Shown here piece after piece: positions 3,126-23,557 of a stretch of DNA of 48,218 nucleotides. The stretch is from Chthoniobacterales bacterium (GTDB lineage: Bacteria > Verrucomicrobiota > Verrucomicrobiia > Chthoniobacterales > JACTMZ01). Under the pieces are notes generated by a model. The model had not been told where the DNA came from. It worked only from the letters and a program-made list of their open reading frames with translations, and did not search any database. Position 1 is the first letter of the stretch. Every line of letters starts with the position of its first letter. The stretch spans positions 1 to 48,218 of the forward strand of contig VEQL01000022.1 of the NCBI GenBank assembly GCA_018883245.1. The letters run 5' to 3'. The position numbers and the translations under genes are program-made.

Positions 3126-4408
3126 GACCAGCTTCCCTCGAGACGGATCAGCTGGCCGAGCGTGCGTGCGCGAACGTTCGCGCGCGTGGGTTCGCCGGCC
3201 ACCACAAACCGCGCGGGAGAATTTTCGATTCCGAAAGTGGCCACGGGAATCCGTGAGCAGCCCTCCCGAATTGCCGCGCGGATATGGAACAAGCCGGGCA
3301 TGAGGGGCAGAGCGGGCACCGTGAAACGGAAGTAATTCTTTCCCGGCCGGCAAGGAACAGGCGCGCCGCTGTCTTCCGAGGCGACAACCGTGAGCAGGTC
3401 GCGGGAGAGAATCGAGATGACGGCGAATGCCTCGGACTCTTCCCGAAAATCGGCGGTGATCACGATGTCCACGGCTTCGCCCGTGCGGATGTTGCCGCCG
3501 GCGCTGGCCGATGCAACGGTCACGGAGTCGATCCTGCATTTTGCGTTTTGAGCCGGGCTGAAATTATCAGCGTGGATTCCGCCGGTGCCGGGCGACGGCC
3601 GATGCAGATCGCTTTCGTAATAGTGATCGAGCGCCTCCAGAGCGGAACCCCGGAAGACGCTGCGTCCCCGGTCGAGGACAAGGCCGTGCGTGCAGAGCAT
3701 CTGGATTTGGTTGGCCGCGTGCGAAACAAAGACCAGCGTGCCGCCTTCTTCCACGAATCCCTGCATGTGGCGCAGGCACTTTTGGCGGAAATCGGAATCG
3801 CCCACGGCGAGGACTTCGTCCACGAGGAAGATATCCGGCGCGAGACCCCTGCCGATCGAGTAGGCCAGCCGCGAGCGCATCCCGGAGCTGTAGAACCTGA
3901 CCGGCGTCTCCATAAAATCGCGCAGGCCGGAAAATTCGACGATGGAAGGAAGAAGCTCGTCCACCTCCTCCCGCGGAAGCCCGAGGATGGAAGCGTTGAT
4001 GTAAACATTCTCGACCCCGGAGAGAACGGGATCAAAGCCCGCCCCGAGTTCGATGAGCGCCGCCATCCGCCCGTTGATCGTTATTTCCCCCGCGTCCGGC
4101 TTGATCAGTCCGTAAAGCAACTTGAGCAAAGTGCTTTTGCCCGATCCGTTGCACCCGATCACCGCCAGCGCTTCGCCCGGGCGGACTTGGAACGAAATGT
4201 CGTCCAACGCCCAAAATTCGCCGGGCCGCAAACGCGCGGACTTCCCATCCCCCAGCAAAAACTCGCTGGCGATATCGGCGATGCCGTAGCGCAAAGTTTG
4301 CCCGAGGCTCTTCGCGAATTTTTTGCCGAGACCGCCGACTTCGACGCGTGGAGACGAATCCGCTTGGGAGGGGAGCGCCGCGTCTTCGTTGGATGGCGCG
4401 GTCAGCAT
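3122..4408 (-). CDS. Polysaccharide ABC exporter ATPase with Wzt-type C-terminal domain
   Basis: This 428-residue protein energises export of a lipid-linked glycan across the inner membrane. Residues ~20-260 are the nucleotide-binding domain: Walker A GCNGSGKST (85-93), a degenerate YSSGMRSRLA signature near 173 as usual in Wzt/TagH proteins, and Walker B DIFLVDEVLA near 193. A long N-terminal helix region precedes the ATPase core, as in polysaccharide exporters. Residues ~290-428 form a beta-rich tail like the Wzt carbohydrate-binding domain, which in known systems recognises the modified glycan terminus. ATG 4408 overlaps the end of the P450 gene by 7 bases, and the stop overlaps the start of the terpene-cyclase-like gene. 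Both junctions imply translational coupling. The permease partner is encoded at 5590-6444/6456, with the P450 gene between the two subunits. Confidence 0.93.
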   Translation of the reverse strand: MLTAPSNEDAALPSQADSSPRVEVGGLGKKFAKSLGQTLRYGIADIASEFLLGDGKSARLRPGEFWALDDISFQVRPGEALAVIGCNGSGKSTLLKLLYGLIKPDAGEITINGRMAALIELGAGFDPVLSGVENVYINASILGLPREEVDELLPSIVEFSGLRDFMETPVRFYSSGMRSRLAYSIGRGLAPDIFLVDEVLAVGDSDFRQKCLRHMQGFVEEGGTLVFVSHAANQIQMLCTHGLVLDRGRSVFRGSALEALDHYYESDLHRPSPGTGGIHADNFSPAQNAKCRIDSVTVASASAGGNIRTGEAVDIVITADFREESEAFAVISILSRDLLTVVASEDSGAPVPCRPGKNYFRFTVPALPLMPGLFHIRAAIREGCSRIPVATFGIENSPARFVVAGEPTRANVRARTLGQLIRLEGSWS

Positions 4409-5583
4409 AGGCGCACACGAAGACGTCTGATCGAGCGGAAGGCATCGCTCGGCTCGTAAGGCACTTCATCGAGCGGCTGATCCGCGCGCATGGCCGGAAG
4501 CCGCGAGGCCAGCGCGGAAGCGACTCCGATCGCCATGGTCTTGGCGATCATTGCACCAAGGCAGAAATGGATCCCGTGCCCGAAAGCAACCGAGGTCACG
4601 GTCCGGTCGAAGCGGAACTCCCGAGGCTGCGGAAAAACCGACGGATCGCTGTTGGCCGCCAAAATGCAAATTTTCACCATCGCATTGGCCGGGATCTTCA
4701 CGCCGGCCAACTCGAAGTCCTGCAGGGCCTTGCGCGGGAGAACACCCGTGGGGCCTTCCATGCGCAAGGCCTCGTTGACGAAGCCCGCGAGGAGGGCTTT
4801 GTCCGCGGAGAGCTTTTCCGCAAGGTCCGAGTTTTTCAGCATGAGAAGGATCAACGAAGGCAGAAAATGCGTGCTCGTCGATGTTCCGGCGAACCAGAGG
4901 AGACGGAGCAGGCCTGTGATCTCGTCGTCCGAAAGCGCGTCTGGAACGCCCAAGGATTTCAGGGCACCGAAAACGGTGGATGGATCACGATCGTTCGCGG
5001 CAGAGACCAGTTGCGAAAGATAGGCCGTGACGTCCGGCCAGCTTTCGTTGAGCTGCGTGCGATTGGACGGCCGCATCGCCATGAGGGTCTCCGTCTCAAG
5101 TTTGCTTAGTCCGAGCATGTGCCCCGTGAACTGCTCGGGCAAAGGACAAGCCAGATCTCCCACCACTTCGAACGCCCCGCCGTTTCCTGCCGTCTTTTCC
5201 AGGAATGCCTGCATCCAGTTCGCGGTGTAGGATTCGACCATGGCGGCATCGCATCCCGCCATGGCGCGCCCGAGGATCTTGCGGTAAGCCGTGTGCTCGG
5301 GCGGATCATTGCCCACCACCAAAGGATCGAATGACTCCGTATACTTGCTGGACAAGATCTGGGGATTTTTGAACGCCCAGACTGCTTCGTCGTATGACAG
5401 CACATACCACTCGCCCAGCGACGCATCGAAGCAGACAGGCGACTGCGCGCGCGCCGTGCGGTAAAACTCGTGCACATCAGGTCGAGAACTGCTGAAGGAA
5501 AAGTCAAAGGAAGGAGCACCTCCGGTGGAAAAGCGCGGGCGACTGCGGAAAGACTTGGCAAGACGATCAAGGAGAGGACGCAT
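4402..5583 (-). CDS. Cytochrome P450
   Basis: This is a soluble bacterial P450 of 393 residues with the expected landmarks. The I-helix oxygen-activation segment is LLWFAGTSTSTHF. The K-helix ExxR is EALR starting at residue 271. The haem loop is FGHGIHFCLGA at 334-344, with the thiolate cysteine at 341. PPEHTAYRK near residue 95 matches the conserved PPxHxxxR segment. Such enzymes hydroxylate or otherwise oxidise a hydrophobic substrate using electrons from ferredoxin partners; no ferredoxin or reductase gene is seen nearby. The gene lies between the ABC permease (6-base gap) and the ATPase (7-base overlap). Its substrate is therefore probably part of the exported molecule, plausibly the prenyl or cyclised terpenoid moiety (inference). 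Confidence 0.95.
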   Translation of the reverse strand: MRPLLDRLAKSFRSRPRFSTGGAPSFDFSFSSSRPDVHEFYRTARAQSPVCFDASLGEWYVLSYDEAVWAFKNPQILSSKYTESFDPLVVGNDPPEHTAYRKILGRAMAGCDAAMVESYTANWMQAFLEKTAGNGGAFEVVGDLACPLPEQFTGHMLGLSKLETETLMAMRPSNRTQLNESWPDVTAYLSQLVSAANDRDPSTVFGALKSLGVPDALSDDEITGLLRLLWFAGTSTSTHFLPSLILLMLKNSDLAEKLSADKALLAGFVNEALRMEGPTGVLPRKALQDFELAGVKIPANAMVKICILAANSDPSVFPQPREFRFDRTVTSVAFGHGIHFCLGAMIAKTMAIGVASALASRLPAMRADQPLDEVPYEPSDAFRSIRRLRVRLC

Positions 5584-6464: not shown

Positions 6465-7475
6465 TCAGGCGTCTCTTTTCATAGCCGCGGGACGCCAGAC
6501 TTGCCGCGCACGATAAAAGATCCGGCGCCAGCAGTCCGGAAAAAGCGCCAACTGCACCGGAAACAAAACCAAGTAGCGCGGATCACCCCGGGATAACGCC
6601 AGAATCAAAGTGAGCGGGAGCCACAGCTGGTAATATTTAATGAGAGCAAAGCGGCAATCCGGGCGGGGGACGACCGCTACCGAAGCTATCCCGCAGCGGC
6701 GCCAAAGGATGAGCTGCGTGACGACGTAGGCTACCGCAAAAAGCGGCACGAAAGCAGACCAGCCCATACACAAAAGTGCGGCCAAAGCGCCCAGTTCGAA
6801 CGGGAGAACAAAGAACCGCACAAAGTGCCGCAGCTTCTCCAGCCCGAGCTTCACCGCAAGTGTCTGCACTCCGGCCACGCGATCGGCGGTAAAATCGCCG
6901 GCTTGATGGTAAAGGATGCCGCGCAAGCCGAAGGCAAAAGACCAGACCGCCAGTGCGAGGATAAAGGTCGTCTGCGCCTCGGGGTTTGCCAGAAGCGCGC
7001 ACCAAAGCGCGGGAAATGCGGTTCCACCGCAGGCATCAGCCACCACACCTGCCGCACCGCGCACTTTCAGCCGGAAGGGCTGCACGGAATACAGCGTGAA
7101 GATGATCCAGTTGGCGGCATAAAGCAGGCCCGCGCTCCGGTTGCCGGAAAAAAAGACGAAGAAGCAAATCAATCCTCCGAGAATGCAGGCCAGCACCCAA
7201 CCGGCTTTCAAGAAGGAAGACTTGCCCTGCATCGTGTTGCTTTTGCCCGCAGTCCGGTCCTCCTGCTCGTCCGTGATGTCGTTGATAACGCACACATAGG
7301 AAGCGAGGGGGATGATGGAGACCAAGCAGGCGACGAAAGCAGGCCAAGCGGCGAAAAAGTCGATGCCGCCGACAAACGCAGACAGGTAGGCGATGCCGAG
7401 AAAAATGGCCGCCTTGAATTCCCACCAGGTGCGCGCACGCATCGGCGCGAAGAAAGCAGCAACCGGCGCTAGCAC
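6465..7475 (-). CDS. UbiA-family prenyltransferase
   Basis: This membrane-embedded aromatic/phosphosugar prenyltransferase has about 336 residues. The two Asp-rich motifs that bind Mg-prenyl diphosphate are present: NDITDEQED at 65-73 and a second motif with D194 and D198 in HQAGDFTADR. Roughly eight to nine hydrophobic helices lie between and after them. GTG 7475 is chosen because GGAAG precedes it by 7 bases and it overlaps the end of the glycosyltransferase gene; ATG 7442 is the alternative (325 aa). It is a paralogue of the UbiA protein at 20543-21595: YSVQPFRLKVRG against YSVRPIRLKERG, with the second Asp motif at the same residue numbers. It could prenylate a sugar phosphate or ring acceptor to make the lipid carrier of the exported glycan; the acceptor is unknown. 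Confidence 0.88.
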   Translation of the reverse strand: MLAPVAAFFAPMRARTWWEFKAAIFLGIAYLSAFVGGIDFFAAWPAFVACLVSIIPLASYVCVINDITDEQEDRTAGKSNTMQGKSSFLKAGWVLACILGGLICFFVFFSGNRSAGLLYAANWIIFTLYSVQPFRLKVRGAAGVVADACGGTAFPALWCALLANPEAQTTFILALAVWSFAFGLRGILYHQAGDFTADRVAGVQTLAVKLGLEKLRHFVRFFVLPFELGALAALLCMGWSAFVPLFAVAYVVTQLILWRRCGIASVAVVPRPDCRFALIKYYQLWLPLTLILALSRGDPRYLVLFPVQLALFPDCWRRIFYRARQVWRPAAMKRDA

Positions 7476-8650
7476 AACAAAGCTTCCAGTTTGTCGGCGA
7501 ATGCCGCGCAGGGATCGCGGGGAAAATAGCGCCAGACGCTCTCGGACGCCTTGCGTCCAATCCCAGCCCACTCGTCGCGACGCGCCCACGCCCGCTCCAT
7601 CGCTTCGTCGAGCGCATCGACCGTCGAAGCCGACGCAACGAAGCCGGTCACGTTGTCCTCGAGGATCTCCCCCGCCCCGCCGGCCGGGCAAACGATGGGA
7701 ACGCGGCCGCAGATCATGGCTTCGACTTGCGCCAGCGGCAGACCCTCCGCCCTCGAAGGCAGCACGAGCGCATGGTGGTCCCGCCAAACCGTGGCGATAT
7801 CGTCGCTGAATCCGCGAAAACGGACGTTTTTCAGTCCGAAAAACTCAGCCATCCCCTCGAGGCCCGCAGCGTGGGAACCGGATCCGTAGAAACTGACTTC
7901 CACCGGACGCTCACGCCACTTTGGCCGCGAAAGGACCTGCAAAAGAATGTCCTGACCCTTTTCGTCGGCGTAGAGCCTTGCGACACAAGCCAGGCGCAAG
8001 ATGCCGTCCTGCGCCGGAGGCCAGGGCAAAGGTTCGTGGGTGGCAACGCAGAAGGGATTGCGAAGCACCTCGCCGTGGGCCAGGGGCAAGCCCAGTTGCA
8101 TCCGGGCCACATCGAGATTGTGCTCCGAAACGAAGTAGATTTTTTCCGCCCGGGAAAAATGACCCCGGTATCTTTCGCGAAGATCGTCGTTGGGCCACTC
8201 GGTTTCGGTATTTTTCTGGCAGACAAGAACAAAGGGCTTGGCTGCTTGGTGTGCGATCAAAGGCAACTCGACGGAATACATCGCATCGTAAGTGTTGCCT
8301 TGGGCGATGACGACCAAGTCGGGTCGGAGTCGCCGCAACCGGAAGCACAACCACCGGTTGCCGAGGCCGTAGAGGAAAAAGGCAAGGGGCTTCCAGAACA
8401 GCAGGACAGCATCCGGCACGGCGCGCAACAACATTGGAACGGTGAAGCCTCCGATCTCGAGGCCTTGGGCTCGCAACTTCTCCCACCTCGGATGCTTTCG
8501 CCAATCTCCGCCCCTCTTGCTGCGACTGCACAACACCCGATGACCACGTTTGTGCAATTCGACGGCTGCGCCGGACCACAGTTCCTCACTGCCGCCCCAC
8601 ACGTCGTAGCAAGAGGTCAGAAAAAGAATCGAACGTGAGCGCTTGGCCAT
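7469..8650 (-). CDS. GT4-family glycosyltransferase
   Basis: This GT-B retaining glycosyltransferase has 393 residues and starts at ATG 8650. The N-terminal Rossmann domain opens with ILFLTSCYDVWGGSEELW, typical of GT4 acceptor domains with a glycine-rich loop. The donor half carries LRLACVARLYADEKGQDIL, a VSFYGSGSH strand, and the E-x7-E donor-binding signature in EGLPLAQVEAMICGR, followed by GGAGEILEDNVTGF. It acts at the cytoplasmic face on a lipid-linked glycan; donor and acceptor cannot be read from sequence. It lies 73 bases downstream of the tandem-domain glycosyltransferase gene, and its stop overlaps the preferred start of the UbiA gene. Confidence 0.9.
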   Translation of the reverse strand: MAKRSRSILFLTSCYDVWGGSEELWSGAAVELHKRGHRVLCSRSKRGGDWRKHPRWEKLRAQGLEIGGFTVPMLLRAVPDAVLLFWKPLAFFLYGLGNRWLCFRLRRLRPDLVVIAQGNTYDAMYSVELPLIAHQAAKPFVLVCQKNTETEWPNDDLRERYRGHFSRAEKIYFVSEHNLDVARMQLGLPLAHGEVLRNPFCVATHEPLPWPPAQDGILRLACVARLYADEKGQDILLQVLSRPKWRERPVEVSFYGSGSHAAGLEGMAEFFGLKNVRFRGFSDDIATVWRDHHALVLPSRAEGLPLAQVEAMICGRVPIVCPAGGAGEILEDNVTGFVASASTVDALDEAMERAWARRDEWAGIGRKASESVWRYFPRDPCAAFADKLEALLC

Positions 8651-8723: not shown

Positions 8724-10751
8724 TCAGCGGCGGGGACGGATTGAGTAGGAGATCCGCCGCGAGACCCTCCGCAGAGAAGCGATCGGGTCGCGCACAATGC
8801 CGAAAAACCATTTGGGCCAGGTCATCCAGCGAGCAATTTCCGGCGGAGGGACGATCGGGCCAGTGGCACGCCGCGAAGGCTCGCCGACAATGCCGGAAAA
8901 AATCTCGACGTAGTCATCGATCATTCGTCCGAGAGAAAATTTCTCGGCGATGGTGCGTGCGGCAGCCACGGACATTTGCCGACGGTCCGCCGGGTTTCGC
9001 CAAAGCCACTCCAGTCGATCCGCGAAAGCTTCGGTGTCGCCCACCGGCGCGATCAAACCATTCTCGCCTGCGACTATCGCATCAGGCACACCGCTCCGGA
9101 TATCGCTCACCACGGGAACCACGCCGCGGGACATTGCTTCGAGCATTCCGAGGGAAAGACCTTCGAAGGCCGAGGGCAGCAGATAGGCGTCGCACGCGGG
9201 CAGCAATCGGAGCACGTCGGAATTGGAAAGCGTGCCCTTGAAGACGATCTTGCCGACATCGATCAGATCGGCTGCGGCCTCTTCCATGGCTCGCCGGAGT
9301 TCCCCGTCGCCGACAATGGCCAACTCGAAGGGCACTCCCCGTCCGTCGAGCGCGCGGGCGATGGAAATCAAATCAAGCGCCCGCTTTTGGCATTGCACCA
9401 AGCGACCCGTGTAAATGATGCGCAACGGATCACCGGGAAGTCGGTGGCTGCGCGCAGCGCAAAGATCCTCAATCGGGTCCGGCGGAAGCGCGATGCCGTA
9501 GGGAACGGTGTGCATCTTTCCCGAAAATCCGGGAGCAATCGCGCGGAGATGTCCGGTGATCGCGCTGCTGACGCCGACGATGGCATCGCAAGCGTGGCCG
9601 ATGCGGCAAAGATTTTCGTAGTGCCACGGATCGTCGCTGTGCCCGATGCCGACCACCCGGACACGCCCGAAAAGTTGCGGGCAGATGCAGGCGTCGCCAG
9701 TATTGTAATCGGGCACATAGATGCAGGGTGCCAACCGCTCGATATGCTCGATAGCGAGACGCCAGCGATCCGGCCATGGCAGGAAATCACCTACCGATCC
9801 AGGATCCCGGGCTTCGAAGGGAAGATCCGTGGGGGGCGTGAGAGGGCTGGTCGCGGTATTCGGAGACGGACCGTATAACCTGGCGTCGATACCTCGTTCA
9901 CACAGGCCGCGCACCAAAAGGCCGGCGAAGGTATCAACCCCGGTGATGGTCGACGACGATGTTGCCACGATGACCTTGCACTCCGCGAGACTCCCGGACC
10001 AAGACGGAGCAGGTGGGCGGGCCGAGGCGTCGACCAGCGGGGCGTCGGGCCAGGGCACGAGTTTGTTGGCATATTTGACGTCGCGGTGGCCGTGACACCG
10101 TGTGATTTTTTCCGCACCTGATGTCTTTCTCGGAGGCGGGACGAGCAAGCCGCGGCGGCGGACAAACCCGCCACGGGAAGAACGTTCCTCGATCCGATCG
10201 AGGAGAGAGACATATTTTGCCACCGTATCCTCGGACAAACGACCCTCCTCGCCCGCTACGGGAATGCAGACGAGACGGGTCTTCAGGAAAGGAAATCTGC
10301 GGGCGAGTTGCTGCTCCAAGGGACCGCTTCCCGCGATGACCGCATCCAGGTAACGGCCGAGGCGCGCGAACTGCCTGATCTCCGCTTCGCTTCCGCAACC
10401 AACGAAGCCGATTGCCTTCACATTCCGCGAGAGCCGTGGCACGACGACGTTATAACGCCAATCATCCGGCATCAGGTAAAAGCACGGCGCCCGTTCCTCC
10501 AAATATCTCTCCAACGCCTCCCACCGCTGGCCCCATGTGTCATCCGACCCGACCGGAAGGCGCTCGCAAATCAAGGACGGCGACTTGAGAAGACTGGGCG
10601 CCGAAGAACTGCCATTCCCACGATCTATTCCGGTCAGCAGGAGCTTCGCATCATGGCCTCGGTCTACCAATCCACCTGCCAAGAACTCCGGGAAAGCGAT
10701 CGTTTCTCGCCGACTTAAAGTCGAGATTCCGAGGATCACTCTATGCGGCAT
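8724..10751 (-). CDS. Tandem-domain glycosyltransferase (two GT-B acceptor domains, one GT4 donor domain), copy 1
   Basis: This 675-residue protein (ATG 10751) is much longer than a normal GT4 enzyme. Residues ~255-640 are a full GT4: acceptor Rossmann fold from VIVATSSSTITGVDTFAG, then IIYTGRLVQCQKRALDL and the E-x7-E signature EGLSLGMLEAMSRG. Residues 1-215 look like a second copy of the acceptor domain without a donor half: VILGISTLSRRETIAFPEFL parallels the later strand-loop, YLEERAPCFYL parallels HIERLAPCIYV, and RLGRYLDAVIAGSGPL parallels RIGHACDAIVGVSSAI. The function of the extra domain is unknown; protein-protein or glycan docking is possible. A full paralogue with the same design lies at 16628-18619. 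The gene is first in the minus-strand operon. Confidence 0.88.
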   Translation of the reverse strand: MPHRVILGISTLSRRETIAFPEFLAGGLVDRGHDAKLLLTGIDRGNGSSSAPSLLKSPSLICERLPVGSDDTWGQRWEALERYLEERAPCFYLMPDDWRYNVVVPRLSRNVKAIGFVGCGSEAEIRQFARLGRYLDAVIAGSGPLEQQLARRFPFLKTRLVCIPVAGEEGRLSEDTVAKYVSLLDRIEERSSRGGFVRRRGLLVPPPRKTSGAEKITRCHGHRDVKYANKLVPWPDAPLVDASARPPAPSWSGSLAECKVIVATSSSTITGVDTFAGLLVRGLCERGIDARLYGPSPNTATSPLTPPTDLPFEARDPGSVGDFLPWPDRWRLAIEHIERLAPCIYVPDYNTGDACICPQLFGRVRVVGIGHSDDPWHYENLCRIGHACDAIVGVSSAITGHLRAIAPGFSGKMHTVPYGIALPPDPIEDLCAARSHRLPGDPLRIIYTGRLVQCQKRALDLISIARALDGRGVPFELAIVGDGELRRAMEEAAADLIDVGKIVFKGTLSNSDVLRLLPACDAYLLPSAFEGLSLGMLEAMSRGVVPVVSDIRSGVPDAIVAGENGLIAPVGDTEAFADRLEWLWRNPADRRQMSVAAARTIAEKFSLGRMIDDYVEIFSGIVGEPSRRATGPIVPPPEIARWMTWPKWFFGIVRDPIASLRRVSRRISYSIRPRR

Positions 10752-14513: not shown

Positions 14514-15344
14514 ATGGTAATCAACGACTCCGAAAGCCGACTGCGGCATCCGCTCGATTTTTTGGGAGGCTTTGTGCGCGATCTCTTCGCGTCGCGGTTT
14601 GCGACAAGCACGCTTCTGAAAAGAAATCTTGCCCTGCGTTACCGCTATTCCTCCTTGGGAATCTTGTGGGCCGTGGCCCCGCCGTTGGTGACCGCCGGGG
14701 CCATAACTCTCGGTCGGAGATTTGACCTTTTCAGCGCAGGGGGGCCGGGAGTGCCTCTCGTTTATTACGCGGTTTTCGGTGTTGCTATGGCCCAGACGTT
14801 CCTCGAATCGATGAATATGATGAAGGGCATCTTCGCGACGAATCGTCAACTTCTCGCCCGCGACAACATGCCACTGGAAGGGATCATTGCCTCGTCGCTT
14901 TGCGAGGAAGTTTTCCATACGGCTGTCCGCATGGCCGTGGTGTGCTTGGGATTTGCTTTCGGCCTGAAACCGTCCATTGCCACCTTCCCGTTGGTCTTTG
15001 TCGGGTTTCTCGGGCTTGTTTTCGCGGGTGCGGGCATCGGTCTGCTCATCGCGCCCATCGCCAGGTTCAAGGGTGACATCGACAAGGCGATGGCGGTTTT
15101 TCCGTGGATCTTTTTTGCCGTCACACCGATCTTTGTTCGCTCGGGTGGCCAAGGATTTTTACACACCATTTACGCCTGGAATCCTGCCGCGTGGGTTTTT
15201 GACGGTGTTCGCGCTGCGGCCTTTGGTGGATCAGGATCGCTCTGGGCAGCGGGCTTATCGCTGCCTTTCGGGTTGGCACTTTTTGTCGCGGGATGCCTCT
15301 GGTGCCGCGTGGCTAGACCTTACGTCGTGGAACGCTCCGTTTAG
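14514..15344 (+). CDS. ABC-2 type polysaccharide export permease (Wzm-like), second copy
   Basis: This 276-residue integral membrane protein starts at ATG 14514. LLKRNLALRYRYSSLGILWA is the Wzm/TagG-type entry into the first membrane helix. Further spans follow, and the C-terminal part has the conserved NPAAWVFDGVR segment. It pairs with the ATPase gene that starts 11 bases after its stop, and together they make a second ABC glycan exporter. Sequence similarity to the first permease (5590-6444) is limited to family features. The two exporters therefore probably handle different glycans or are anciently diverged, unlike the near-matching glycosyltransferase and UbiA pairs. Confidence 0.9.
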   Translation: MVINDSESRLRHPLDFLGGFVRDLFASRFATSTLLKRNLALRYRYSSLGILWAVAPPLVTAGAITLGRRFDLFSAGGPGVPLVYYAVFGVAMAQTFLESMNMMKGIFATNRQLLARDNMPLEGIIASSLCEEVFHTAVRMAVVCLGFAFGLKPSIATFPLVFVGFLGLVFAGAGIGLLIAPIARFKGDIDKAMAVFPWIFFAVTPIFVRSGGQGFLHTIYAWNPAAWVFDGVRAAAFGGSGSLWAAGLSLPFGLALFVAGCLWCRVARPYVVERSV

Positions 15345-15355
15345 AAACAAAGTCC

Positions 15356-16657
15356 ATGTCCGCGCCGATTCTCGAGGTCTCCGCTTTGTCGAAGAAGTTC
15401 TGCCGCGACCCGCATTTCGGGTTGAGATATTTCCTGCAAGACGTTGGCCGCGAAATACGCTGGCGATCACCATTACCGCAATTGCGGGCGCAAGAATTCT
15501 GGGCGCTGCGCGACGTGAGTTTCTCGATGCAATCCGGCGAGGTGCTCGGAGTTATCGGGCATAACGGCGCGGGAAAAAGCACTCTGATCAATTTGTTGGC
15601 CGGAGTCATGCGCCCGACCACGGGCCGAGTGACTTTGCATACGAAGAGGGTCGCCCTCGTCGAGCACGGGGGCGGACTCGACCCATCGCTCACGGGACGG
15701 GAGAACGCGCGCAACCGGCTCGTTCTGCACGGTTGTCATGGAAAATCATTGCCTGAAAAAGAACGCGGCGTGATCGAGTTCGCCGAGATCGGCTCCTTCA
15801 TCGATGCCCCGGTCGGAACCTACAGCCTCGGCATGCGCCAGCGATTGGCCTTCTCGATCTACACGCAACTCGAACCGGAGTTGTTCATCATCGACGAGGC
15901 TTTGAGCGGAGGGGATCTGCGCTTCAGCCGCAAGTTTTCGGCGTTCCTCAAGACTTACGTGAAAAATGGCGGCAGCATACTCCTGTGCTCCCATTCGCTG
16001 CCTTCGATCCAGTGGCTCTGCCCCCGAAGTATCCTGCTGGATGGCGGCAAACTCCTCGCCGAGGGGCCAACCACCGACGTTATAGACGCCTACCAAAAGC
16101 TCTGTGAAGATCGGGACAAGCGCAAACAGGTCGGATCGAAAAACGCACATGCGTCGCATGCACGCGAGAGCAGCCCCGAGGAAGTGAGGATCCTGAATGT
16201 GTCCGCCACGGGCGCCGATGGAGGCGCTATTGTCCCGCGCTGCGGGGTGCAGATCCGGGTGACTTTCGACAGCCCTCGCCCCATGGGCAACCTGTGCTGC
16301 AGCATCGAAATCGGAAACGCGGCGGTCTTCCCCATCTCGGTTCTGCACGGGGGTTTGGAGGATGACCTCCAGCTTTGCGCCGGCTCAAGCACCATGACTT
16401 TCCGCATTCCATCCCTGCCTTTGACCGCCGGCACCTATCGCGCCCAAGTTCTTCTCGTGGAAAAGGACAATGCTGTGCCTGTCGCGCGCTATGGTTTTGA
16501 TGGTCCTGCTTGCGAGTTTGTGGTGACCAAGGAGCCGGATTTGATGTCCAACATGGCCGCCTACCGGAACTACCTTCTGAATATCGAACACGAATGGTCC
16601 ATTGAATCGGGGAATGCACCCGCCGAACTAACCCCCGGAACGCAGCAGCCGTTGTGA
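15356..16657 (+). CDS. Polysaccharide ABC exporter ATPase with Wzt-type C-terminal domain, second copy
   Basis: This 433-residue ATPase partners the permease at 14514-15344. Walker A is GHNGAGKST (68-76), the signature loop is YSLGMRQRLA, and Walker B is LFIIDEALSGGD, where most Wzt proteins have DEVLAVGD. EHGGGLDPSLTGREN is typical of polysaccharide exporters. Residues ~280-410 form a beta-rich C-terminal domain like the Wzt glycan-recognition module. Its final ~10 codons overlap, on the opposite strand, the 3' end of the tandem-domain glycosyltransferase gene (30 bases), so the two transcripts converge through coding sequence. Role: ATP-driven export of a lipid-linked polymer. Confidence 0.92.
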   Translation: MSAPILEVSALSKKFCRDPHFGLRYFLQDVGREIRWRSPLPQLRAQEFWALRDVSFSMQSGEVLGVIGHNGAGKSTLINLLAGVMRPTTGRVTLHTKRVALVEHGGGLDPSLTGRENARNRLVLHGCHGKSLPEKERGVIEFAEIGSFIDAPVGTYSLGMRQRLAFSIYTQLEPELFIIDEALSGGDLRFSRKFSAFLKTYVKNGGSILLCSHSLPSIQWLCPRSILLDGGKLLAEGPTTDVIDAYQKLCEDRDKRKQVGSKNAHASHARESSPEEVRILNVSATGADGGAIVPRCGVQIRVTFDSPRPMGNLCCSIEIGNAAVFPISVLHGGLEDDLQLCAGSSTMTFRIPSLPLTAGTYRAQVLLVEKDNAVPVARYGFDGPACEFVVTKEPDLMSNMAAYRNYLLNIEHEWSIESGNAPAELTPGTQQPL

Positions 16658-18619
16658 CACCCTTTGCACGGAAGCCAAAGGATCGGAAGCAACGCGGCTC
16701 AACCAAGCAGACCATGTCATCTCGCGCGCGATGTGCGCAGGCGGGGCAAACGGTCCGAACGAGCGGCGGGAGGGTTCGGCCAGGATCCGGGAAAAAATTT
16801 CCACATAGCTGTCGATCATTCTTTCGAGAGAGAAATTATCGGCAACAGTGCGAGCGGCCGCAGCCGACATTTTCATCCGCGCTGCGGGATTGCGCCACAG
16901 CCACTCGAGCCGGTCCGCAAAAGCCGCCGCATCCCCAGCCGGGGCAACAAGACCGCTTTTACCCGGGACGATGGCGTCAGGAACACCGCTGCGGATGTCG
17001 CTGACCACCGGCACCACACCGTGCGACATCGCCTCGAGCATCCCGACAGAAAGCCCCTCGAACGATGATGGCAACAAATAGGCATCGCGTGATTCGAGAA
17101 ATTTCAGCACGGCAGCGTTCGGCTGCGGACCAGCGAACCACAATTTCTGTCTGATAATGAGATCGGCAGCCGCTGCTTCCATTTCCGCTCTAAGCTCGCC
17201 GTCTCCGACAATGGCCAATTCAAAAGGCACGCCGCGCCGGTCGAGTTCGCGGGCGATGGCAAGCAGGTCAACCGCCCTTTTCTGGTGCAGGACCAGCCGC
17301 CCGGTGTAGGCGATACGCAGAGGTGCATCAGGTTTGCGCTCGCGACGGATGGCCGCAAGGCTCTCCGCAGGTTCCTCAGGCAGCGAGACGCCATACGGGA
17401 TAGTTCGCAGCTTTCCGGAAAATTTTGGGGCGATGGCACGGAGGTGAGCGGTGATAGCTCCGCTCACACCCACAATGGCATCGCATGCATGGCCGATGCG
17501 GCACAAATTTTCATAATGCCATGGATCGTCGCTGTGCCCGATGCCAACGACCCTGACTCGGCCGGACAACTGCGGGCAGATGCACGACCACTCGAGGTTG
17601 TAGTCAGGAACATAAATACACGGCGCAAAACTCTCGATCTGCTCCACGGCCAAGCGAAAACGATCTTTGTAGGAAATGAAATCCCACTCCAAACGAGGAT
17701 CGCGCGTCTCGAAAGGCAGATCGGAGGAGGTCTCGAGCGGACTGGTGGCTTTGGACGGAGCGGGACCGTGCAGTCTTGCGTCGATGCCCCGCTGCCGCAA
17801 CCCGCGGACCAAGCGACTCCCGAAGACATCAACTCCGCTGATGGTTTCTGCCGAGGCGGCAACGATGATCCGGCAATCCTCGAGCTGACCAGTCCACTCC
17901 GGCACGGGCGCGATAAGCTGCTCGCACGCAACCGGACCATCAGGCCAATGACCGTGCTTGTTGACATAGAATCGTCCCTCTTCAAGGTCATCCTCGGCAG
18001 TGGAGACTTTTTTCGCCAAGCTTACTAAAGGGCCAATATAGTGGCGGGGGCGTGGGCATCCGCCACGCGCCTCCAATTCGCTGATGCGCCCGAACAAGTC
18101 GAGGTAGGCATCGGCCATGGCTGGCTCGTCACGAATCATGCAAAGCCGCGGAGCAAGATGTGGAAAACGACTGGCGAGTTTGAAATGGATAGGGGTGCTC
18201 GAGGCAACAATCGCAGCCCAAAAGTGTCCGAGGCGCCCGACCTGCTCGATCTCCGCCTCGTCATCGACAAGCAAGACACCAATCAGCTTCACATTGCGGG
18301 AGAGGCGCGGGGCAATGATGTTGTTACGCTGGTCACCCAACATGAGGTAGAAGCAAGGGCCGCGTTCCTCGAGATACCGCTGCAATGCTTCCCATCGTTG
18401 GCCCAACGTATCGTCAGGACCCGCAGGCAACCTGTCGCACGGAATGTCGCAGGGCACGGAGAGCTCCTCGTCGATACCGTCCACGAGGCGACATCCGCTT
18501 TCTGTGAGAAGGACACGGGCATCTTCGCCCCGGGCCTCGAGGCCACGGACCAATCGCTCCGCAAACGAGACTTCACGGTGCACGCCCCAGCTGGGAAGTC
18601 CTAAAATTATTCTGCTCAC
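16628..18619 (-). CDS. Tandem-domain glycosyltransferase, copy 2
   Basis: GTG 18619 gives a 663-residue product whose start (MSRIILGLPSWG) lines up with MPHRVILGIST of copy 1 at 8724-10751; TTG 18658 would add 13 unmatched residues. The architecture is the same: an unpaired GT-B acceptor-like domain (~1-220), a second acceptor domain (~250-440), and one GT4 donor domain with IAYTGRLVLHQKRAVDL and the E-x7-E signature EGLSVGMLEAMSHG. Long identical blocks such as VVGIGHSDDPWHYENLCRIG occur in both copies. The closeness of the copies points to a duplication inside this locus. The gene is on the minus strand, convergent with and overlapping the second ABC ATPase gene. Confidence 0.87.
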   Translation of the reverse strand: MSRIILGLPSWGVHREVSFAERLVRGLEARGEDARVLLTESGCRLVDGIDEELSVPCDIPCDRLPAGPDDTLGQRWEALQRYLEERGPCFYLMLGDQRNNIIAPRLSRNVKLIGVLLVDDEAEIEQVGRLGHFWAAIVASSTPIHFKLASRFPHLAPRLCMIRDEPAMADAYLDLFGRISELEARGGCPRPRHYIGPLVSLAKKVSTAEDDLEEGRFYVNKHGHWPDGPVACEQLIAPVPEWTGQLEDCRIIVAASAETISGVDVFGSRLVRGLRQRGIDARLHGPAPSKATSPLETSSDLPFETRDPRLEWDFISYKDRFRLAVEQIESFAPCIYVPDYNLEWSCICPQLSGRVRVVGIGHSDDPWHYENLCRIGHACDAIVGVSGAITAHLRAIAPKFSGKLRTIPYGVSLPEEPAESLAAIRRERKPDAPLRIAYTGRLVLHQKRAVDLLAIARELDRRGVPFELAIVGDGELRAEMEAAAADLIIRQKLWFAGPQPNAAVLKFLESRDAYLLPSSFEGLSVGMLEAMSHGVVPVVSDIRSGVPDAIVPGKSGLVAPAGDAAAFADRLEWLWRNPAARMKMSAAAARTVADNFSLERMIDSYVEIFSRILAEPSRRSFGPFAPPAHIAREMTWSAWLSRVASDPLASVQRVSQRLLRSGG

Positions 18620-18699
18620 GCGAGGTGTTTTCGATTTTCCCTTGCTACTGCACGGCAAGGTAAAACATACGAAAATAACAAACCTTCTCTGCAGCGCCT

Positions 18700-18809: not shown

Positions 18810-18964
18810 CGGTCGGCTGAGTCAGCGGGCTCTACCAATCGAAAACCTTGGTGGAGTCCAAATCTTTTTGGGACTTGGTATCACTTACCACTGGCAGCGC
18901 TTGCAGCCTGTCATCGCGTTGCATTGCAGTTTCGTTGAAGTATCGTCTCACGTTCTACCCTACG

Positions 18965-20353
18965 ATGTCCGCCCTTCTCCGCCGCACCGCCGCTCTCGGT
19001 CTTTGTGCACTCAATCTTGTATCGACCCCTTGTTCTGCCGGCCAGACCGAGGAAACGGCCCGGCAACCCAATGTGCTGTTCATCGCCGTCGATGATTTGA
19101 ATCACTGGGTCGGCCATCTCGGGCGCAACCCGCAGACAAAAACTCCGAATATCGACAGACTCGCCGCTTCGGGCGTGGCTTTTACCCGCGCCTATTGCAA
19201 CGCGCCGGCGTGCAGTCCATCCCGTGCGTCGGTCTTGTCGGGACTCAGGCCCAGCACAATGGGTGTCTATGGAAATGACCAGGATTGGCGACGTGCAATC
19301 AGCGAAGACAAACTGCTGAATACGCATTTCTCAAAGGCCGGCTACCGTGTGTATGGGGCCGGAAAGATTTACCACGGCGCAAATGAGCCCGGCGGCCCTT
19401 GGGATGATTATTTCGCGGGGCAACCCGGCACCGGTCCTCTTGTCATGCACCCGTCCGCGAAGGATGAAGGCGTCGGAAGGATCAAATTCTACCCATTGGC
19501 AAATTCTGATGAGGAGATGCCCGACTACCATTCCGTGAGCTACGCGATCGAGCGTCTCGAGGAAAAAAGCGACAAGCCCTTTTTTATTGCCGTTGGGCTG
19601 CTCAAACCGCATCTGCCTTTCAGTGTTCCGAAGAAATGGTTCGACCTGTTCCCGCTCGATTCGATCGAACTGCCGCCGCACCGCGAGGACGATCTCGACG
19701 ACGTTCCGCCGCCTGGCGGCGCCATGGCCAAGCCGGGGCAAGATCACGCGGCGATTGTCGAGTCAGGCCGTTGGAAGGAGGCGGTCCAGGCTTATTTGGC
19801 GTCGATTGCCTTCTGCGACGCCCAGATTGGCCGTCTCCTCGACGCGCTGGACAAGTCCGAATATCGCGACAATACGATCGTTGTCTTGTGGTCGGACAAT
19901 GGGTTTAGCCTTGGCGAAAAATCGCTCTGGAGCAAATTCGCGCTCTGGGAGGAACCCACGCGCATCGTGCATGTCTGGCGCGTTCCTGGTGTCACGCAGC
20001 CCGGCGGCGTTTGCGAGCGCACGGTGGACCTCCTCAGCATGTATCCGACCCTGTGTTCGCTGACGGGCATTCCGGCGCCGGCGCACCTTGAGGGATACGA
20101 CTTGTCGCAACTCTTGATAAACCCTTCCGCCGAATGGAAGCACCCAGCCATCACGACGCACGGGCCCAACAACCACGCCATTCGCACCGAGGGTTGGCGC
20201 TACATTCGCTACGCGAACGGCGACGAGGAGCTTTACGATGAGATATCGGATCCGCTGGAGTATACCAATCTCGCGAAATCAGAAAAACACGCCGACCGGC
20301 GCGCGGAGCTTCAGGCCATGCTCCCAGCGGAAAATGTGCCTGCGGTGCCGTAG
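18965..20353 (+). CDS. Secreted type I sulfatase (iduronate-2-sulfatase-like)
   Basis: The product has 462 residues from ATG 18965 and an N-terminal signal peptide (LLRRTAALGLCALNLV, likely cut after PCSA), so it acts in the periplasm or outside. The formylglycine motif CSPSRASVLSG carries the cysteine at residue 83 that an FGE must convert. Metal ligands D43-D44 (AVDDLN) and the downstream SDNGFSLGEK match the S1 sulfatase family. The overall pattern, including EWKHPAITTHGPNNHAIRTEGWRYIRY, is that of iduronate-2-sulfatase-like bacterial enzymes, which hydrolyse sulfate esters on polysaccharides. Next to sulfotransferase genes it may edit or recycle the sulfated glycan; scavenging of external sulfated sugars is the alternative. 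Confidence 0.93.
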   Translation: MSALLRRTAALGLCALNLVSTPCSAGQTEETARQPNVLFIAVDDLNHWVGHLGRNPQTKTPNIDRLAASGVAFTRAYCNAPACSPSRASVLSGLRPSTMGVYGNDQDWRRAISEDKLLNTHFSKAGYRVYGAGKIYHGANEPGGPWDDYFAGQPGTGPLVMHPSAKDEGVGRIKFYPLANSDEEMPDYHSVSYAIERLEEKSDKPFFIAVGLLKPHLPFSVPKKWFDLFPLDSIELPPHREDDLDDVPPPGGAMAKPGQDHAAIVESGRWKEAVQAYLASIAFCDAQIGRLLDALDKSEYRDNTIVVLWSDNGFSLGEKSLWSKFALWEEPTRIVHVWRVPGVTQPGGVCERTVDLLSMYPTLCSLTGIPAPAHLEGYDLSQLLINPSAEWKHPAITTHGPNNHAIRTEGWRYIRYANGDEELYDEISDPLEYTNLAKSEKHADRRAELQAMLPAENVPAVP

Positions 20354-20366
20354 AAATGCCTCAGTC

Positions 20367-20536
20367 CACTTCTCCGCCGACCAGCTAGCTGTGCGCCAAC
20401 TCATGAGCGACAACGGCTCGGCTTACCGATCCGGTTCCATCGCTACAACTGGCACCGACCCCACACCGCACTTAAACTCAAAACTCCGATCGAGTCCCTC
20501 AATCTACAAGTCAACAACGTGTTAAGACTCCACACT
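20367..20536 (+). mobile_element. IS481-type transposase remnant, internally deleted
   Basis: The interval encodes two pieces of an IS481-family DDE transposase joined by a deletion: MSDNGSAYRS (the catalytic DDE-core strand with its Asp) and then RFHRYNWHRPHTALKLKTPI...NNVLRLHT, the conserved C-terminal end of these proteins. About 80 codons are missing between them and everything upstream is lost. The C-terminal frame has no stop at its usual place and runs into the UbiA gene. No terminal inverted repeats can be assigned. It marks a past insertion between the sulfatase and UbiA genes. Confidence 0.8.
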
Positions 20537-20542
20537 TGGCCA

Positions 20543-21595
20543 ATGACAACCGCAGCCCCGCTCAAAGTCGATCGCTGGTGGGCGAGCCACTACGGAATGA
20601 TGGTGGCATTCGTCTATCTCGTCTTGGCCATCAGCCCGTCACCTCCGACTCTCACTGCCCTCCTCCAAACGCTCGCACTCTTCACCTTCGCATCGCTGGG
20701 CATAGGCACTTTTGGCCATCTGCTTAACGACCTCACGGACGTAAGACAGGACAGTCGCAGCGGCGCTTACAATGTGCTGTCCACCAAAGGCCCGGTTGCG
20801 CGTTTCGCGTTTTTAACGGGCGCATTGGTCGCGGGAATCGCTCCTTGGTGGTGGCTGCCTACCACGCCTGTTGTGGCTGCGCTGGTTGCTTCGGAGTTTC
20901 TTCTCCTTGTGATTTACAGCGTGCGTCCTATCCGGCTCAAAGAGCGGGGCATGCTCGGTGTGATCGCCGACGCCCTGTATGCCTATGTGGTGCCGAACGC
21001 TTTTGCCGTGCTGCTTTTCGACAAGCTCGGCGGTGGCGGCACGCCGTCATGGATGATCGCGGCAATCCTGTTTTGGTGTTTCTGCTTCGGCCTCGAGCGG
21101 ATCATTCACCACCAACTTCTCGACGCCACTCGCGACGAGAAAGAAGGCGTCCAAACGTTCGTGGTCCGCCGCGGATGGGTGAATTCTTTCCGATTTTTGT
21201 CCATTTTTGTCACTCCCACGGTTGGCTTGGCCCTTGTAGTTCTCCTTGCGGCTTGCGCCACCGTCTCCCCTCTCGTGCCGATCGCATTCGCCGTGCATGC
21301 CGTTCTCGTTTTGGCAGTGTGGAGCCGTTTGAGCACACTGCACGACCCATCACTCGGCAGACTGCCGCCGATCAACCTTTACCACGTGATCGCCGAGCGA
21401 TTGATCGCCACATTTGTCTGGCGATGGTTTGCTTTGCTTTCGCTCATTGTCCTCGTCATTGCGCATCCGCAATACCTGCCGTTGATACCACTGCACCTGA
21501 TGTTGTTTCCCGGCGGCGCGCTGTGGGCCCTACGACATGGAATTCCGCACACATGGAACTTGTTCCGGCCCGGTCGCGCATACGGATTGCACTAA
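20543..21595 (+). CDS. UbiA-family prenyltransferase, second copy
   Basis: ATG 20543 gives 350 residues; the frame is open further 5', but only into the transposase remnant. Asp-rich motif 1 is NDLTDVRQD (62-70). Motif 2 is HHQLLDATRDEKEGV, with D194 and D198 at the same positions as in the paralogue at 6465-7475. Eight or nine hydrophobic helices are visible. Between the motifs the two proteins share YSVRPIRLKERG and a following G-V-x-A-D-A segment. UbiA enzymes transfer a prenyl chain to an aromatic ring or to a phosphosugar (as in decaprenylphosphoryl-ribose synthesis). The acceptor here is unknown; a lipid carrier for the exported glycan is the favoured guess. The gene is followed by the sulfotransferase/P450-like fusion 30 bases on. 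Confidence 0.87.
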   Translation: MTTAAPLKVDRWWASHYGMMVAFVYLVLAISPSPPTLTALLQTLALFTFASLGIGTFGHLLNDLTDVRQDSRSGAYNVLSTKGPVARFAFLTGALVAGIAPWWWLPTTPVVAALVASEFLLLVIYSVRPIRLKERGMLGVIADALYAYVVPNAFAVLLFDKLGGGGTPSWMIAAILFWCFCFGLERIIHHQLLDATRDEKEGVQTFVVRRGWVNSFRFLSIFVTPTVGLALVVLLAACATVSPLVPIAFAVHAVLVLAVWSRLSTLHDPSLGRLPPINLYHVIAERLIATFVWRWFALLSLIVLVIAHPQYLPLIPLHLMLFPGGALWALRHGIPHTWNLFRPGRAYGLH

Positions 21596-21625: not shown

Positions 21626-23557
21626 ATGTCCTCCGCTCAAAATGAATCTCTGAATTCGGCAAGCCCGAAGAAGATCATCATGATCATGGGGGTGCAAAGG
21701 TCGGGCACGACGACCTTGTTCAATGCTCTGGCTAGCGCCGCCAATGTGACGGCAAGGGAGGAATCGCCGGACGACCAAATTTATTCCGATTATTTTCTGC
21801 GACCGGAGCCCGAGATCCGCGATGTTCTGCAAGGCCTTCCCGGAACCATTGTTCTCAAACCGGTGCGCGAGTCCGAGCGACGCTCGCCGCTGGAGGTTGC
21901 CAACGAATATGCAGACTACGACCTACGCATCATTTGGCTCTACCGCGACCCGGTTAACGTCTTCGACTCATATTTGCGGTGTGACTGGCTCACAATCCGG
22001 AAGCGCACCGATGCGCTGACCTTCGCGGGAAAGTGGCACGAACGAAACGCCCAAGCCGTCGCGGACGCGGCAGATCTCGGCGACCGGCTGGTTGTCGTCA
22101 GCTACGAGGATCTTGTCACCGACCCGGACGTTCTGCGACGTCTTGGTCTGGCTTTAGAGCTGCGGGTGAAAAACACCTTTCGCGACGACTCTGCTCTCGG
22201 TCGGATGCGCCAACCGGGTGCTATCTGCGGCATGATCGACGACGCAACCGCCAGTGTGCGCAGCCATCTCGACCGGATGCGTTTGGTGAAGCCGGCCACG
22301 CCGGGAAAAGCACCCGACAGCCTGGCGAGTCGTTTCACCCGATGGATTCATCGATTCCGGCCCGCATCCCGGCACCACAACGCTCCCCAGGAGAACACGG
22401 AGAACCGGGACATCGCGGTGGACCAGAGCGTGCCTGCTGTCGTCACGGCGGTTCTGCGGACCTCCCACTACTGGGAAGTGCTGCTGGGGGAAGACCCCTC
22501 CGCGCTGTATTCCCGCTGGCTCGCCGCGGGCCCGCTCCGACACCATGCTGATATCAACACATTCGTGGCGCTCGGATACAACGCATCACGCGCGATACTT
22601 GAAAGATCGGCGCCCTTTCGTCCGGTGCCCACTTTGGCTCAGGGCGTGCAGCCACCGGCATGTGTGGTTGAAATCGGCCGATATATGGCAGAATGCCACA
22701 ACCGCGTTCGCGATCGACTGACCGCCACGCTTGCTGCATGGGAGGCCGCCCTACCGCGGGGCCAGCAGGGCAATCTGCTCGAACAACTTGCCCCTCTCAG
22801 CATCGACTGGATCGCAATCTGGCTCGATATTTCGACAGATCTCGCAGCCGCCGTTACCTCGGAGATTCAAGGGCTGTATTTTTCCACTGACTCTGCGAAT
22901 CCGTCGCCCGCTTGGGAAAGCCTGGCGGCGTCGATCTGCCAAAAAGGCGTGGTCGCAGACCTATGCGCGGCAGGCTTGCTGCGTCGCGAGGATGTTCTGG
23001 GCTTTGTTTGCGACGCGGTCACACCGGCAATGACGATCCCCCCCGCGGTTTGCAACTCGCTCGGCGCGATTGCGGCGCAGCCTGATGTTCTCGCACTCGC
23101 GCGCCAATACCCGGAGAAGATCCCTGCCATTTTCATGGAGGCCATGCGGCTCGTGCCCATGTGGTTCAGCCTCAAGCGGCGGCTAAGCGAGGCCATCAGA
23201 ATCGGTGATGTGTCGCTCCCGAAAGGTGCCACCGCCGAGGTCTTTATTGCGACGGCCAATCGCGATCCGGCGGCGTTTGAGTCTCCCGATCAGTTGATTG
23301 TCGATCGGCAAAGCCCTCAGCCACTTCTGCCCATCACGAGGTCGGCCTCGTTGGGTGATGGAGAAAACGATCTCGAGAAGATCGGCCGCAAAATGTTTCT
23401 TGAGCTGTCTTCTTCGGTCCTCGGCCGCCTGCTGGCGGCGCCGCTGCAATTTCCATCTCCTATGCCTCCACGACTTCGTGTCTCACCGCTTCCCGGAGGC
23501 GATGTTTTTCAAAAACCCCAGGAACTAATCGTAGCTTTGGAGGGCAACCCGGATTGA
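21626..23557 (+). CDS. Sulfotransferase fused to a cytochrome P450-like domain lacking the haem cysteine
   Basis: This is a 643-residue two-domain protein. Residues 1-~230 are a sulfotransferase with the PAPS loops intact: GVQRSGTTT (22-30) and the 3'-phosphate loop LRIIWLYRDPVNVFDSYLR. From ~270 onward the sequence follows the P450 fold: an I-helix-like VLGFVCDAVTPAMTIPPAV, the K-helix ExxR as EAMR (505-508), and IRIGDVSLPKGATAEVFIAT then ANRDPAAFESPDQ, which is the usual stretch before the haem loop. The haem loop should follow at about 570, but LPITRSASLGDGEND has no F-G-x-G-x-H-x-C, and no cysteine occurs after about residue 470. The second domain is therefore probably a catalytically dead P450 serving as a binding scaffold. 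The coupled neighbours suggest it presents a terpenoid or lipid substrate for sulfation (inference). Confidence 0.82.
   Translation: MSSAQNESLNSASPKKIIMIMGVQRSGTTTLFNALASAANVTAREESPDDQIYSDYFLRPEPEIRDVLQGLPGTIVLKPVRESERRSPLEVANEYADYDLRIIWLYRDPVNVFDSYLRCDWLTIRKRTDALTFAGKWHERNAQAVADAADLGDRLVVVSYEDLVTDPDVLRRLGLALELRVKNTFRDDSALGRMRQPGAICGMIDDATASVRSHLDRMRLVKPATPGKAPDSLASRFTRWIHRFRPASRHHNAPQENTENRDIAVDQSVPAVVTAVLRTSHYWEVLLGEDPSALYSRWLAAGPLRHHADINTFVALGYNASRAILERSAPFRPVPTLAQGVQPPACVVEIGRYMAECHNRVRDRLTATLAAWEAALPRGQQGNLLEQLAPLSIDWIAIWLDISTDLAAAVTSEIQGLYFSTDSANPSPAWESLAASICQKGVVADLCAAGLLRREDVLGFVCDAVTPAMTIPPAVCNSLGAIAAQPDVLALARQYPEKIPAIFMEAMRLVPMWFSLKRRLSEAIRIGDVSLPKGATAEVFIATANRDPAAFESPDQLIVDRQSPQPLLPITRSASLGDGENDLEKIGRKMFLELSSSVLGRLLAAPLQFPSPMPPRLRVSPLPGGDVFQKPQELIVALEGNPD

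Follow-up and report, generated by a model that had tools for sequence, protein, structure and literature searches.

A sulfotransferase fused to a P450-like domain without the haem-ligand cysteine in a Chthoniobacterales bacterium

Introduction

What can a P450 fold do once it has lost its haem ligand and is joined to a sulfotransferase? This question is raised by a gene of a Chthoniobacterales bacterium (assembly GCA_018883245.1) located at positions 21626-23557 of the forward strand of contig VEQL01000022.1. Its product comprises 643 amino acids, with a PAPS sulfotransferase at the N-terminus and a P450-like domain lacking the haem-ligand cysteine at the C-terminus. The window, i.e. the whole stretch of DNA that was analysed, has a length of 48,218 nucleotides and corresponds to an entire contig (G000:C22) of a draft assembly of 84 contigs. 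An earlier note, written from the letters of this DNA, had described the second half of the protein as a retired P450 used as a scaffold to deliver a hydrophobic substrate to the sulfotransferase. Here, we examine the gene and its two domains, the origin of the fusion and its genomic surroundings. Then, we weigh the possible functions of the P450-like domain against known systems.

The fusion gene

The gene is a single open reading frame (21626-23557, +) with zero internal stops. Frame 1 obtains the best codon score in every block of 64 codons; the signal is weak at codons 321-384 and 577-640. Synonymous codon choice lies within the range of the neighbouring genes and the composition is even. 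Furthermore, codon signal and reading frame run unbroken through the join between the sulfotransferase and P450 parts. The linker contains a stretch that reads as a basic amphipathic helix (approximately residues 232-244, LASRFTRWIHRFR; 22319-22357, +) and that is modelled as a helix at low confidence by AlphaFold2.

The sulfotransferase domain

The sulfotransferase domain spans residues 1-225 (21626-22300, +). It was delimited by two Pfam families above their gathering scores and by an alignment with two free-standing sulfotransferases, one of 212 residues from a virus-derived contig (L110) and one from a genome of the same genus. Sulfotransfer_3 (PF13469) matches with an E-value of 6.3e-12 and 46.7 bits against a cut-off of 27, and Sulfotransfer_1 (PF00685) with 1.8e-5 and 24.7 bits against a cut-off of 22. 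The PAPS loops, which the earlier note had read as intact, are both in place. The 5′-phosphosulfate-binding loop GVQRSGTTT (residues 22-30; 21689-21715, +) provides R25-S26-G27-T28-T29, and the 3′-phosphate-binding motif LYRDPVNVFDS (residues 105-115; 21938-21970, +) presents R107 and S115 with the usual spacing. In addition, the E45-E-S47 segment (HExS; 21758-21766, +) is the candidate site of the general base according to the alignment, where E45 and S47 are invariant between the fusion and the two free-standing enzymes. The domain seems untruncated since the compact L110 protein has a similar length. PDB sequences gave no real match to this half. An APS kinase for PAPS supply is encoded in the same genome. 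Judged by its motifs, the sulfotransferase half is predicted to be active.

Another unusual sulfotransferase fusion occurs in the same genome, on contig C34 (L125:2076-4886, -). This protein of 936 amino acids combines, in this order, an alkaline-phosphatase-superfamily-like domain, TPR-like repeats and a sulfotransferase, the first two having been judged by eye.

The P450-like domain: retained fold residues

The P450-like domain covers residues 268-643, or about 260-643 (22427-23554, +), as delimited by Pfam, PDB matches, a sequence profile, an AlphaFold2 model and its VIA-align comparison. The Pfam p450 family (PF00067) is matched above its cut-off (5.6e-6, 25.8 bits against 22.8) and solved P450 chains of the PDB match with E-values down to 5e-12. 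Both kinds of match cover residues ~450-566. A more complete picture is provided by a profile of 45 P450s from which the fusion was left out, with 300 shuffles as control. Residues 260-643 score 93 bits (shuffles at most 4.6) and residues 260-450 alone still obtain 15.6 bits (shuffles at most 3.0). The last 79 residues (565-643) score -3.8 bits, below a shuffle maximum of -1.8, and this tail is unrecognisable as P450, whereas the tails of intact P450s reach 36-92 bits against the same profile.

Conservation follows the same division. All 14 columns that are conserved in at least 95% of the 45 P450s outside the haem loop are kept, against two of five inside it; five of these 14 columns form the ANRDP segment, which was partly a selection criterion of the P450 set, and nine of nine are kept without them. 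The retained residues of the fold core are E505/R508, R518, ANRDP and R561. The K-helix ExxR motif (EAMR; 23138-23149, +) lies at exactly 505-508 and the meander segment ANRDPAAF at 544-551 (23255-23278, +), both intact in sequence and column alignment and both as previously noted. Toward the N-terminal side, the C-helix segment HNRVR (358-362; 22697-22711, +) aligns with the usual HxxxR and retains its histidine and arginine, in a region that is modelled at low confidence.

AlphaFold2 was run on residues 220-643 with a P450 alignment and returned a model with a mean pLDDT of 70.7 and a pTM of 0.70. The core from helix I to helix K′ shows pLDDT values of about 90 or more, while much of the first half lies below 65. 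A Foldseek search with the model retrieved only P450s among its best 50 matches, and VIA-align superimposed it on P450BioI (3eje_D) with a Z of 23.7 and an rmsd of 3.7 over 310 residues. EryCII, a P450 homologue discussed below, is absent among the 50 VIA-align matches listed, which says nothing either way. No fold emerged in a single-sequence control (pLDDT 37). Because the P450 alignment steers the model, it is consistent with the sequence comparisons and not independent of them. From the profile and the conserved columns, a P450 fold is very likely for this half.

The P450-like domain: lost catalytic residues

The haem-thiolate cysteine of the FxxGxHxC signature is missing. At the expected place, profile, MAFFT alignment and a six-frame search point to a degenerate haem loop (residues 573-588, SASLGDGENDLEKIGR; 23342-23389, +). 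In the MAFFT alignment, the columns of the loop Phe, His and Cys are occupied by L576, N581 and L583, respectively, while an ungapped alignment places Asn581 in the Cys column. Cysteines of the fusion occur only at 119, 201, 346, 357, 438, 447, 462 and 476. The absence of a haem loop and of any cysteine near the C-terminus, the central observation of the earlier note, is thereby confirmed, with 167 cysteine-free residues at the end of the protein. The cysteine is kept in all of the ~80 closest P450s inspected.

The I-helix was recognised before as P450-like, and alignment and model agree with this assignment. Its oxygen-activation motif is lost: VTPAMTIPP (465-473; 23018-23044, +) replaces AGxE/DT, and of the acid-alcohol pair only T470 is kept and the acid is gone. 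The damage is thus wider than the cysteine. Three catalytic features were checked (the thiolate cysteine, the haem-loop Phe/His and the I-helix acid), and all are lost. A frameshift near base 23330, which would have hidden a normal loop, had been named as an observation that would overturn this picture. It is ruled out, since none of the frames of the two strands contains a haem loop around this position; past the end of the reading frame, none was found in six frames either.

The sequence therefore gives good support to the description of this half as a retired P450, joined to a sulfotransferase that looks intact: three catalytic features are gone, and fold residues and open frame are kept. 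The codon signal, 384 stop-free codons and the fold residues retained despite ~4 changes per site (see below) argue for a domain that is kept and not decaying.

Origin and rarity

Two P450 matches exist in the genome, both on this contig. In a quick tree, the dead domain sits on a branch of ~4 changes per site and groups with P450s from Billgrantia, Rhodoferax and Pseudomonas (L050, L037, L051; SH-aLRT 93). With HHalign, this group is the only one among those tested that aligns over most of the dead domain (285 columns), and other P450 groups score equal or better over shorter stretches. The kinship is suggestive, its placement resting on a long branch. Unlike the fusion, these three P450s are single-domain proteins which retain FGxGxHxC; they adjoin ArsR-like regulators, as judged by eye.

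The fusion is known from one genome. Samples taken at the level of genus, order, class and phylum, ~1,000 related genomes in all, yielded nothing but ordinary P450s or sulfotransferases. A scan of 85,000 species genomes returned no second fusion by a limited peptide-pattern search, which would miss distant copies. Lastly, no report of a sulfotransferase-P450 fusion was found in the open-access literature, which is weak evidence of absence.

Gene neighbourhood

Two sets of partly paralogous genes lie on the contig, one at ~2-11 kb and the other at ~14-23 kb. Between the sets, the glycosyltransferases are 58% identical, the ABC ATPases 33%, the UbiA proteins 29% and the permeases 24%. The fusion belongs to the second set and has a UbiA-family prenyltransferase and a methyltransferase as direct neighbours. 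The prenyltransferase gene (20519-21595, +) ends 30 bp before the fusion, lies on the same strand and probably shares an operon with it. Further upstream lie an ABC-2 permease (14514-15344, +; Wzm-like), an ABC ATPase (15356-16657, +; Wzt-like) and a GT4-type glycosyltransferase (16628-18658, -) with a paralogue at 8724-10751. The permease and the ATPase are, respectively, 66% and 53% identical to their counterparts in G129, another genome of the same taxonomic order. The locus glycosyltransferases match the GT4/GT87 families. A gene at 18848-20353 (+), upstream of the UbiA-fusion pair, probably encodes an exported sulfatase, as suggested by the formylglycine motif CSPSR; a desulfation function would thus sit beside the sulfation genes.

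The first set contains an intact P450 (4402-5583, -; FGHGIHFCLG), the sole other P450 found in the genome, a second UbiA-family prenyltransferase (6465-7787, -) and a terpene-cyclase-like protein (2103-3125, -; gene start estimated) whose DVDDTA is a class II cyclase-type motif. The two halves of the locus had been called mirror images, with an intact P450 and a broken sulfotransferase opposite the fusion. The intact P450 is indeed present. For the broken sulfotransferase, a single candidate came up, an open reading frame at 1-1710 (+). It is open at base 1 and the window is the whole contig, so that it has been cut by the assembly. Pfam detects only a C-terminal capsule-synthesis domain in it, and its N-terminal ~290 amino acids, truncated at the contig edge, are unassigned; this candidate was rejected. 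Special kinship between the two P450s is not supported either. An origin of the dead domain as a copy of its intact neighbour was rejected tentatively, as there is no BLAST match between them and no grouping in the quick tree, in which branches are long. The mirror image is thus not supported.

Comparable loci exist elsewhere. In genome G048, a UbiA relative and an intact P450 stand in tandem beside a CrtC-like/lipocalin-type gene (L119:9618-13353). In G129, two contigs (L120 and L122) overlap in one glycosyltransferase gene and yield the order sulfotransferase-UbiA-glycosyltransferase, ATPase-permease, acyltransferase-P450, squalene-hopene-cyclase-like protein and polyprenyl diphosphate synthase. 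The acyltransferase-P450 (L122:3514-5901, -) is a fusion of 796 amino acids with an acyltransferase domain (PF00698) and a normal haem loop, so that loci of this type have yielded two unusual P450 fusions. The G129 homologue of the cyclase-like protein has a weak match to the C-terminal domain of squalene-hopene cyclase. Both cyclase-like proteins, which are small (2103-3125, -, and L122:5897-6943, -) adjoin UbiA, P450 and Wzm/Wzt-like genes, and a terpenoid-glycolipid cluster is possible.

Like the locus studied here, the three UbiA-linked P450s (4402-5583, the one on L119 of G048 and the acyltransferase-P450 on L122 of G129) keep company with UbiA, and two of the three loci also carry an ABC exporter, a glycosyltransferase and a cyclase-like protein. 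All three have the cysteine, and none is particularly close in sequence to the dead domain. Since UbiA, a cyclase-like protein, an intact P450, ABC exporters and glycosyltransferases cluster here, the gene content suggests a product that is isoprenoid, glycosylated, sulfated and exported.

Comparison with known systems

The nearest precedents for a P450 without its cysteine are EryCII and DesVIII, P450 homologues that lack the haem cysteine and activate glycosyltransferases (PMC3391682). In these proteins, the haem and substrate region is degenerate and helices I to L are retained. EryCII acts on its partner EryCIII by stabilisation and allosteric activation, and its contact lies close to the acceptor site, not at it (PMC3391682). 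The fusion resembles EryCII/DesVIII (TIGR04515) in combining a P450 fold (very likely here), the loss of the haem cysteine and a partner for group transfer. However, EryCII and DesVIII are separate proteins serving glycosyltransferases, whereas the domain described here is covalently fused to a PAPS sulfotransferase. In addition, EryCII is devoid of the C helix, while the HxxxR segment of this helix seems kept in the fusion. Membership in TIGR04515 was considered and rejected: an E-value of 6e-13 looked specific, yet ordinary P450s score equal or higher. The fusion obtains 51.1 bits, below the NCBIfam cut-off of 343, and ordinary cysteine-bearing P450s obtain 44-165 bits, so that the model is not discriminating at this level. 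No glycosyltransferase partner of the DesVII/EryCIII type is found at the locus.

A second comparison is offered by the cyp128-stf3 operon of Mycobacterium tuberculosis, for which hydroxylation and then sulfation of a polyprenyl lipid has been proposed (sulfomenaquinone, S881; PMC6469627). There too, a P450 and a sulfotransferase are encoded together; for the present locus, the likeness is drawn from co-localisation only. The two systems differ in that Cyp128 and Stf3 are separate proteins and a catalytic role is assumed for the P450, whereas the fused P450 of the present locus is dead and an intact one is encoded 16 kb away.

Function of the P450-like domain

In our preferred reading, held tentatively and with somewhat less than even confidence, the dead P450 domain is a non-catalytic helper acting in cis, which binds a hydrophobic acceptor and positions it for the active sulfotransferase. 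The domain would have kept its P450 pocket to bind an acceptor that is hydrophobic and probably isoprenoid. The pocket would present this acceptor to the fused sulfotransferase or fit it there, and the sulfotransferase half would add sulfate to an alcohol, possibly one that the intact P450 in the adjacent gene set has produced. Export of the resulting sulfated (glyco)lipid may then proceed through the ABC transporters. We infer the sulfotransferase activity, the use of the pocket, the action in cis, the class of substrate and the order of steps. The substrate-delivering scaffold of the earlier note is plausible in this context and fits the isoprenoid-type neighbourhood. Several points weigh against substrate presentation: delivery of substrate is not how EryCII, the nearest precedent, works; the pocket may be distorted by the I-helix prolines and the degenerate loop; the fusion is known from one genome; and the first half of the model is of low confidence and P450-guided, the single-sequence control staying at a pLDDT of 37. 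With a shade more reserve, we suggest in broader terms a P450-derived helper outside the glycosyltransferases, covalently fused as a binding or allosteric domain, for which a hydroxylation-then-sulfation pathway may have kept the pocket and lost the catalysis.

Stabilisation or allostery of the EryCII kind ranks, as a guess, close behind substrate presentation, our leading guess. The domain, binding no ligand itself, would stabilise or allosterically activate a partner, which could be the sulfotransferase it is fused to or, in trans, one of the locus glycosyltransferases. EryCII, the solved cysteine-less P450 helper, acts in this manner (PMC3391682), and the low-confidence linker helices before the P450 core of the AlphaFold2 model lie where EryCII has an extra contact helix. 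We consider it less likely than substrate presentation in view of the distance to the TIGR04515 cut-off (51 against 343 bits), the GT4/GT87-type glycosyltransferases, which are not DesVII/EryCIII-like, and the C-helix HxxxR seemingly kept where EryCII is without a C helix.

The membrane-bound UbiA encoded 30 bp upstream, the basic amphipathic helix of the linker and the recurrence of P450s beside UbiA in other genomes would agree with a docking module, which would anchor the sulfotransferase, within an assembly at the membrane, to UbiA, to the ABC transporter or to the intact P450. The dead domain stands apart from the UbiA-linked P450s in the quick tree, and this reading is improbable. Hardly better placed is a recent fusion or decaying relic with a functionless P450 half, as might be expected from its occurrence in a single genome, without relatives in the genus, and from the two stretches of weak codon signal (codons 321-384 and 577-640). 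The domain has accumulated ~4 changes per site, yet there is no stop in 384 codons and the fold residues are kept.

In P450s, the positions of the C-helix His/Arg and of R518 contact the haem propionates. With H358/R362 and R518 retained, the domain might still accommodate haem, or a different porphyrin, with no thiolate ligand and operate as a sensor or a non-P450 haemoprotein. We regard this as very improbable: the loop Cys, the His and the whole loop signature are gone, and the retained residues may serve folding. Finally, a chimera of the assembly, in which a sulfotransferase gene was merged with part of a P450 gene, conceivable in an 84-contig draft and for a fusion missing from the other genomes searched, is scarcely credible given the frame and codon signal continuous at the join, the even composition and the lack of a haem loop past the end of the reading frame.

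Implications

Annotation pipelines would label the fusion a P450, and such labels call for caution. The helper role is testable with one gene split between its halves, which would tell whether the P450-like domain binds the acceptor, holds the sulfotransferase or does nothing. To date, the known P450s without the cysteine are mainly stand-alone proteins that activate glycosyltransferases of antibiotic pathways. If the proposed role is true, a fused version with a different partner would mean that the P450 fold serves in more settings than these as a module that binds or activates without catalysis.
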